From: a virus
DNA: 41,691 bases
IMG/VR virus record: IMGVR_UViG_3300011113_000653
Span: 1-41,691 of that record
Strand: one strand, 5' to 3'
The notes beneath the pieces were generated by a model that saw nothing but the letters and a program-made list of their open reading frames with translations, did not search any database and was not told the DNA's origin. Each line of letters begins with the position of its first letter. Position 1 is the first letter of the stretch. Shown here piece by piece: positions 34,155 through 37,397 of the stretch. The position numbers and the translations under genes were made by a program.

Positions 34155-34229
34155 CACGGGTGATAGGGATCGAACCTACATCATCCAGTTACGGTACTTC
34201 TGCTTAGAAGGCAGAGCCGATACACCCGC
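34155..34229 (-). tRNA. tRNA-Arg(UCU)-like gene with an abnormal D region
   Basis: On the minus strand the acceptor arms GCGGGTG/CACCCGT pair (first pair G-U). A T arm with loop TTCGATC and an anticodon arm TCTGC-CTTCTAA-GCAGA are clear, giving anticodon UCU. Only seven bases (TATCGGC) separate the acceptor from the anticodon stem, so no D arm fits there. Instead 19 bases that look D-loop-like (AACTGGATGA) lie between the anticodon and T arms. Total length, 75 nt, is normal. No CCA is encoded. It may be functional, defective or rearranged. Confidence 0.6.
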
Positions 34230-35660: not shown

Positions 35661-35735
35661 TACGCCGTCTTGGATTCGAACCAAGTCTTATTCGATTATA
35701 AGTCGAACTGAGATAACCAAGACCTCCCACGGCGC
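35661..35735 (-). tRNA. tRNA-Ile(UAU)
   Basis: A full cloverleaf on the minus strand: acceptor GCGCCGT/ACGGCGT (first pair G-U), D arm with GAG/CTC around GTCTTGGTTAT, anticodon arm TTCGA-CTTATAA-TCGAA with anticodon UAU, variable TAAGA, T arm CTTGG-TTCGAAT-CCAAG, discriminator A. No CCA is encoded. It reads AUA codons, rare in many bacteria but frequent in this AT-rich phage. Confidence 0.93.
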
Positions 35736-36756: not shown

Positions 36757-37010
36757 TGCCCCCAGTAGGGATCGAACCTACGACTGTCAGATTAACTTAC
36801 CACTATGGCTTTCGCCACCTTTCGTTTGTGGTCTGGACTATGCCTTCATCCGTTCTGGATGCCAACCGTCTAGTCTCTACACCTTCCCGTTAGGGCTTGG
36901 CTCGGCGTTGGGATTTTAAACCGTTCACCGAATTTGGCTGGATTCACTGAAATATTCCTATTTCAGTGCTCCTATAAAGTCTGCTACTCTACCAACTGAG
37001 TTATAAGGGC
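36757..37010 (-). tRNA. tRNA-Lys(UUU) interrupted by a group I intron
   Basis: The exons are 37010-36977 and 36795-36757. Joined they give a normal 73-nt tRNA: acceptor GCCCTTA/TGGGGGC, D arm ACTC-AGTTGGTA-GAGT, anticodon loop CTTTTAA (anticodon UUU), a 5-nt variable loop, T arm GTAGG-TTCGATC-CCTAC, and discriminator A. One mismatch (27-43) closes the anticodon stem. No CCA is encoded. The intron lies after U34, the same place as the well-known cyanobacterial and plastid tRNA-Leu(UAA) intron. Confidence 0.93.
36796..36976 (-). ncRNA. Group I self-splicing intron, 181 nt, no ORF
   Basis: The minus-strand sequence has the group I core: GGTGTAGAGACTA (R region, 36883-36871) and AAGGCATAGTCC (S region, 36846-36835), whose GACTA/TAGTC form P7. 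A 10-bp P2-like hairpin with a GGAA tetraloop lies at 36968-36945, and a GGC-GAAA-GCC hairpin at 36816-36807. The exon ends in CUU, which can pair with an internal GAG as P1, with a U-G wobble at the splice site. The intron ends in G (36796). Compact size recalls subgroup IC3. No reading frame is present. Confidence 0.9.
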
Positions 37011-37027: not shown

Positions 37028-37056
37028 ATTGTAGCTCAATGAGTTGTGTTTGTCAA
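37028..37056 (-). promoter_or_regulatory. Sigma-70-type promoter of tRNA-Lys
   Basis: TTGACA (37056-37051) and TACAAT (37033-37028) with a 17-nt spacer on the minus strand, 17 nt before the tRNA 5' end. The -35 box contains the TGA stop of the HNH gene, as at the gp33/gp32 junction. Confidence 0.82.
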
Positions 37057-37397
37057 GAGATCACACCAAACTTCTTTAGCAATTCTTTGTTTGTATGTTC
37101 TTCGATATGACAATTAGCACACAATAAAATACATTTTTTTGCTTCTTCGTACCTATCCGCACGTAAAAGATTCTTAGAATACAGAGAATATTTTTTTTGT
37201 GTTGGGTCTATATGATGAAACTGGAGTGAGGCTGGATTTCCTTGAAATCCACACTTGGTACACTTACCACCCATCATCTCAAGTAATTCTTTACGAGATT
37301 CCCAGCGGCGTTTAGTTGTGTCGCAAGAAGAACAAACAACACATCCTTTTTTCTTTCGCTGAGTAAATTCTTTTTCACAGTACTTGCATTTGCACAT
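37053..37397 (-). CDS. Zinc-finger HNH endonuclease
   Basis: A 114-residue nuclease. Cys pairs CKCKYC and CVVCSSC near the N-terminus and CTKCGF at about residue 46-51 bind zinc. The HNH core follows: LQFHHIDP carries the first His, and ILLCANCHIEEH the final Cys-x-x-Cys-His. Enzymes of this family cut double-stranded DNA and are often free-standing homing enzymes in phages. It ends 42 bp before the intron-bearing tRNA-Lys gene, which suggests a role in moving that intron. It overlaps the upstream gene by 23 bp. The target site is unknown. Confidence 0.82.
   Translation of the reverse strand: MCKCKYCEKEFTQRKKKGCVVCSSCDTTKRRWESRKELLEMMGGKCTKCGFQGNPASLQFHHIDPTQKKYSLYSKNLLRADRYEEAKKCILLCANCHIEEHTNKELLKKFGVIS

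Follow-up and report, generated by a model that had tools for sequence, protein, structure and literature searches.

The tRNA-Lys(UUU) gene of a T4-like phage is interrupted within its anticodon by a group I intron without an open reading frame, a ribozyme that very probably splices out to yield a working tRNA. The split gene itself is real, and the reading of its insert as a ribozyme is well supported.

The split tRNA-Lys(UUU) gene and its genome context

The analysed stretch of DNA (the window) is an entire 41,691-base virus contig from IMG/VR, a metagenomic fragment. On its minus strand, a tRNA-Lys(UUU) gene spans positions 37010-36757; an insert of 181 nt separates bases 34 and 35 of its anticodon. 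The 5' exon (36977..37010, 34 nt) ends with GCAGACUU, the last base being U34, and the 3' exon (36757..36795, 39 nt) starts with UUAAUCUG, which contains U35 and U36; the intron occupies positions 36796..36976 and its last base is the terminal G. When introns were allowed, ARAGORN called the gene directly as tRNA-Lys c[36757,37010] (ttt) i(35,181), while 100 dinucleotide shuffles of the window gave one intron-containing tRNA call in total. The joined exons (37010-36977 and 36795-36757) form a 73-nt cloverleaf with the anticodon UUU, identified as tRNA-Lys(ttt) by the same program. The original prediction had described this tRNA as perfect; its length and identity stand, but the adjective is too strong, as pair 27-43 is G/A and CCA is not encoded.

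The Rfam group I intron model RF00028 matches positions 36987-36813 with 60.3 bits (cut-off 50, E 1e-14). The placement of an ORF-less group I intron in the anticodon of this gene, together with its coordinates, is borne out. The match was recovered again in a search of the whole record. A whole-window Rfam scan with default filters at the gathering threshold missed the intron because of these filters, and a scan of the short stretch found it.

The genes of the window include gp32, gp53, gp25- and gp6-like wedge proteins and a tail-tube cap, and the phage is therefore T4-like. Its genes contain 570 AAA and 152 AAG lysine codons. Two further tRNA genes lie nearby on the minus strand, an intronless tRNA-Ile(UAU) (35661..35735, ARAGORN) and a probable tRNA-Arg(UCU) (34155..34229), which scores 35.5 bits with the Rfam tRNA model and is not called by ARAGORN; these two and tRNA-Lys(UUU) suit an AT-rich codon set. 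About 45 bp upstream of tRNA-Lys, also on the minus strand, is a free-standing HNH endonuclease gene similar to phrog_2255 of PHROGs (37053..37397).

An empty site in close relatives

Both intron ends are fixed by an empty site. The relative L307 aligns with the window on both flanks, over 2.5 kb at 83% and over 3.6 kb at 75% DNA identity, up to a break exactly at 36795/36976. In a three-way alignment, L307 and L310 possess intact orthologous tRNA-Lys(UUU) genes in which the 181 nt are missing between CUU and UUAA, which makes the insertion precise; the window sequence shows a U.G pair where the 5' splice site lies, and the intron ends in G. A near-identical intron is present at the same locus of a related phage in an independent contig, L265, and two other relatives, L308 and L309, have no tRNA-Lys at all.

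The anticodon stem differs between the intron-bearing and the intronless gene, being CAGA/UCUG in the window and AAAA/UUUU in L307, so that two G-C pairs stand where L307 has A-U pairs; the remaining tRNA is nearly unchanged. Two explanations fit this difference: the flanking exon sequence was co-converted when the intron was transferred, or a firmer stem was selected. The latter is considered because exon pairing in the anticodon stem was reported to be necessary for splicing of the Anabaena pre-tRNA (Zaug et al. 1993, as cited in PMC3984707).

Ribozyme structure and splice-site guide

A structural alignment of 24 tRNA-Lys introns from phages and bacteria (MAFFT) demonstrated that helices P1, P2, P3, P4, P5, P6, P6a, P7, P8, P9, P9b, and P10 are conserved, with 93.8% of cells paired and 28 pairs changed on both sides. 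Neither value was reached in any of 500 shuffles, and sliding the helix partners by one to three columns decreased the pairing to 29-45%. The alignment contains the P3-P8 core with the P3/P7 pseudoknot, every P3 and P7 cell being paired in all 24 sequences, with double changes. In particular, the P3 strands CCAGCC (36936..36941) and GGUUGG (36862..36867, all positions in this section being on the minus strand) covary in four of six pairs. In the guanosine-binding helix P7, formed by GACUA (36871..36875) and UAGUC (36836..36840), the last pair is G-C, U-A or A-U, and the adjoining pair is once C-G. The 10-bp P2 hairpin with its GGAA tetraloop (36945..36968) has nine of its ten pairs changed on both sides. 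Every element named in the original prediction, namely P7 (GACTA/TAGTC), the GNRA-capped P2, the U.G pair in P1 and the terminal G, is present in the sequence. The window copy has a U.U mismatch in P5, part of which is weak in the whole alignment; one P1 pair scores low due to a MAFFT misalignment, the U.G itself being present in the sequences.

The internal guide UAG+GAG (36969..36974) takes part in two helices: its GAG joins CUU of the 5' exon in P1, where U.G marks the splice site, and its UAG joins UUA of the 3' exon in P10. P1 (CUU:GAG) is identical in all 24 aligned introns and is constant over lysine, leucine, threonine and nearly all arginine hosts, whereas the P10 triplet follows the host tRNA: 48 of the 53 tRNA-Lys introns have UAG (exon UUA), 42 of the 45 tRNA-Leu introns have UUU or AUU (exon AAA), and the two tRNA-Thr introns have UAC (exon GUA). 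The lysine guide UAG suits tRNA-Arg(UCU) exons about equally well. The constant P1 and the host-matched P10 therefore locate the splice sites without recourse to the tRNA-finding program.

The 181 nt are wholly accounted for by core structure, leaving no ORF and no internal homing endonuclease. With its small core, a short P5 that lacks P5abc, GNRA loops on P2 and P9, and insertion in the anticodon loop, the intron resembles subgroup IC3. Several homologues score 30-38 bits with RF00028, below the cut-off, and hence this model covers the family only in part.

Phage and bacterial members of the family

A loose pattern (GTTAAT...GGTTCGA) gave mainly chance matches in viral contigs and was replaced by a stricter one, which identified the split tRNA-Lys in 23 stretches of viral contigs and 41 of bacterial genomes. 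When the loci were parsed anew by exon pairing, a tRNA-Lys(UUU) split between bases 34 and 35 was confirmed for about 15 different viral contigs and almost all of the bacterial ones (L266-L306). At several loci ARAGORN had assigned other labels (tRNA-Asn(gtt), Ala, Val, SeC, Tyr, and others), which we rejected, since the intron was misplaced by one or a few bases. Split genes of this kind are overlooked by standard tRNA annotation.

The bacterial carriers are mostly actinobacteria (Microbacterium, Nesterenkonia, Tsukamurella, Mycobacterium sp. IS-3022, Prauserella, Phytoactinopolyspora, Frankiales) and include some Alphaproteobacteria. In two bacterial loci inspected by eye, the neighbouring genes are chromosomal rather than prophage. 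Using strict patterns, we found an intronless tRNA-Lys(UUU) in none of 16 intron-bearing bacterial genomes, while the control tRNA-Lys(CUU) was found in 13 of the same 16. Among 59 genomes of the genus Microbacterium, the same kind of search detected the split form in five, the intact form in 46, and both in none. The bacterial split form is rare or restricted, because a phylum-wide strict-pattern survey retrieved it from one of 296, namely the query genome itself. The bacterial members very likely splice, since no tRNA-Lys(UUU) other than the split gene was found in the genomes sampled and AAA codons need this tRNA. Bacteria of the Microbacterium type would thus rely on a ribozyme for the sole tRNA-Lys(UUU) that was found in them.

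Related or similar elements were observed elsewhere. One viral contig (L024, 6025-6311) may have an intron in tRNA-Lys(CUU), inserted one anticodon base later, and five others (L061, L118, L043, L060, L067) have introns in tRNA-Thr(UGU) and tRNA-Arg(UCU), likewise between bases 34 and 35. Unannotated tRNA-Leu(UAA) genes interrupted by group I-type introns occur in Agrobacterium phage Atu_ph07 and a 735-kb huge phage (L003 1344-1705; L006 1419-1709). Permuted tmRNA matches above the Rfam cut-off were detected in two viral contigs that carry split tRNA-Lys (L042 3451-3721, L255 2577-2779). In Pelagibacter phage HTVC120P (L002 1501-1618, MH598807.1), a stretch resembling the intron core, with no tRNA and no Rfam match, lies between two pieces that are each annotated as capsid protein. 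Finally, L388 has only a 31-nt run in common with the window intron.

One member belongs to an isolated phage. Gordonia phage Daredevil (L004 1340-1651; NC_048021.1, about 41,821-42,131) possesses an unannotated tRNA-Lys(UUU) with a 238-nt group I-type intron, 0.6 kb from the integrase. Its joined exons are 86% identical to intact mycobacteriophage tRNA-Lys genes over all 73 nt, and its T loop starts with A, not T. In a study of tRNA-dependent lysogeny, Daredevil was described as integrating in tRNA-Lys-TTT without encoding that tRNA (PMC10865867). The premise of that comparison needs to be rechecked, as the phage has a predicted split copy of the tRNA it supposedly lacks.

Exchange of intron cores and HNH endonucleases

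In a tree built from 47 intron cores, a single tRNA-Lys clade is rejected (AU p 0.0006), which rules out a single origin of the tRNA-Lys introns; one clade of lysine and arginine introns is likewise rejected. Closest to the window intron are the introns of L265 and L092. The latter (738-1791) is a tRNA-Leu(UAA) intron of another T4-like phage (judged by its DNA polymerase), which is nested among the lysine copies in the tree with weak support. The window intron and that of L092 share an identical stretch of 151 nt that begins immediately downstream of P2 and runs to the 3' end, the guide and P2 being different, and no DNA match was found between the window and L092 outside the intron region. 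A recent exchange of the core between a tRNA-Lys and a tRNA-Leu intron has thus taken place. Given this shared stretch and the absence of a single tRNA-Lys clade, cores have moved between tRNAs, and the sharp break after P2 favours DNA recombination as the route. One core that occurs in two phage tRNAs, each with its own guide, also provides a natural test of how a tRNA intron changes its host.

Such recombination could be aided by HNH endonucleases encoded beside the tRNAs. In collaborative homing, which is compatible with the ribozyme reading and has been described for phages (PMC3984707), an HNH protein encoded next to the tRNA would cut the intronless tRNA-Lys at the anticodon, and repair would copy the intron in. 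A distinct HNH subfamily is located 35-54 bp downstream of the split tRNA-Lys in four related loci (L042, L259, L261, L265); its proteins are 55-89% identical among themselves and only 43-54% identical to the upstream HNH proteins, and their placement suggests the arrangement expected for collaborative homing. The huge phage LR756511.1 (L005 1422-2208) has a tRNA-Leu(UAA) with a related 700-nt group I intron that contains an HNH gene inside its P6 loop. A homologue of this HNH protein (44% identical) adjoins the core-sharing tRNA-Leu of L092, where the HNH gene overlaps the 3' end of the tRNA. However, the window has only the upstream HNH gene, and most split tRNA-Lys loci have no HNH gene nearby. 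The upstream gene is also present in the intronless relatives, so its arrival together with the intron is rejected. On balance, collaborative homing at this locus is a possibility that we put forward with reserve.

Alternatively, the introns could have spread through an RNA intermediate: reverse splicing, directed by the CUU common to many U34 tRNAs, would be followed by reverse transcription and recombination. The constancy of P1 in lysine, leucine, threonine and nearly all arginine hosts with a P10 triplet re-fitted to each of them would agree with this route, as would the scattering of the tRNA-Lys introns over more than one clade. Nevertheless, the common leucine/lysine core with its sharp break after P2 resembles DNA recombination between resident introns, and direct evidence for the RNA pathway is absent according to a review of phage introns (PMC3984707). 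We therefore regard the RNA route as unlikely.

As a broader picture, held with less than even confidence, phages may harbour a freely exchanging family of anticodon introns that have a fixed P1 for U34 tRNAs with CUU and a re-fitted P10. Their cores would pass among the introns of tRNA-Leu, tRNA-Lys and other tRNAs by HNH-aided recombination, and phages would be a source of the single-copy tRNA-Lys(UUU) introns of bacteria.

Predicted splicing and function

By homology with the other members of the family, the small ORF-less ribozyme, of the kind found in anticodon loops of bacterial tRNAs and here inserted between U34 and U35 of tRNA-Lys(UUU) of a T4-like phage, would splice as follows. On folding of the pre-tRNA, GAG of the intron would pair with CUU of the 5' exon (P1), and guanosine bound in P7 would cut at the U.G pair. 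UAG of the intron would then hold UUA of the 3' exon (P10), and the exons would be joined. The product would be a functional lysine tRNA, probably used for the AAA-rich phage messages during infection. The intron would spread via DNA recombination, possibly aided by the adjacent HNH endonucleases.

The opposite possibility is that the intron is inactive and simply knocks out a dispensable gene, phage tRNAs being frequently dispensable. The P5 mismatch of the window copy and the loss of tRNA-Lys from the relatives L308 and L309 are in line with such decay. On the other hand, the catalytic elements are all intact and conserved, the core has been kept identical over 151 nt in another phage, and the two G-C pairs of the anticodon stem (A-U in L307) match the exon-pairing requirement reported for Anabaena, as cited in PMC3984707. 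Decay of the intron is thus very improbable, and the active ribozyme remains our preferred reading.

Group I introns require guanosine. The original prediction suggested that dependence of the tRNA on ribozyme splicing could couple translation capacity to guanosine level or infection state; this regulatory switch is scarcely credible and finds no support, as the 181 nt represent the core only, without riboswitch-like or additional conserved domains, and the sole-copy bacterial genes point to constitutive splicing.

Comparison with known systems

The tRNA-Lys(UUU) gene is an apparently unreported host and setting for a known class of ribozymes, in which the traces of exchange between tRNAs are unusually clear. 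No group I intron in a phage tRNA, or in any tRNA-Lys(UUU), was found in a search of the open-access literature. In agreement with this, a 2014 review placed all phage introns then known in protein genes, despite the many tRNA genes of phages (PMC3984707). The claim that a phage tRNA-Lys host had not been described is consistent with these sources. The unusual host is not singular, as the family occurs in many phage contigs and bacterial chromosomes. The present analysis adds to the literature searched both the tRNA-Lys(UUU) host and the phage tRNA gene as a habitat of group I introns. Among bacteria, split tRNA-Arg(UCU) and tRNA-Leu(UAA) genes have been reported in Thiomargarita and a related bacterium (PMC4853749). 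Cyanobacterial 'group I introns' published for tRNA-Arg, -Gly, and -Lys(CUU) measure 22-49 nt (PMC5733544); we rejected them as a prior description, since they are too short for group I introns.

The introns of Microbacterium, Nesterenkonia, Tsukamurella, and other bacteria share with the window intron the tRNA-Lys(UUU) host, the insertion site and the guide UAGGAG. The bacterial tRNA-Lys introns differ in their length (214-220 nt, compared with 181 nt in the phage), chromosomal location, residence in what is apparently the sole tRNA-Lys(UUU), and separate branch on the tree. The proteobacterial introns of tRNA-Arg and tRNA-Ile (subgroup IC3, e.g. that of Azoarcus) are similarly small ORF-less ribozymes in the anticodon loop, but their host tRNAs are different. 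The Azoarcus intron is positioned after the anticodon and not within it. The cyanophage psbA intron with its free-standing homing endonuclease (Zeng et al. 2009, as cited in PMC3984707) likewise combines an ORF-less intron with a separate endonuclease gene nearby, whereas in our case the host gene is a tRNA and the endonuclease cleavage is putative.

A further parallel is with the cyanobacterial tRNA-Leu introns; homology of the window intron to tRNA-Leu introns is clear from the tree and sequence comparison. The tRNA-Leu introns, which are usually ORF-less, have the same core, the same P1 (CUU:GAG), and the same position after CUU between bases 34 and 35 (as seen in the phage copies). The window intron differs from them in its host tRNA-Lys(UUU), its guide UAG instead of UUU or AUU, its length of 181 nt, which is smaller than most of them, and its residence in a phage.
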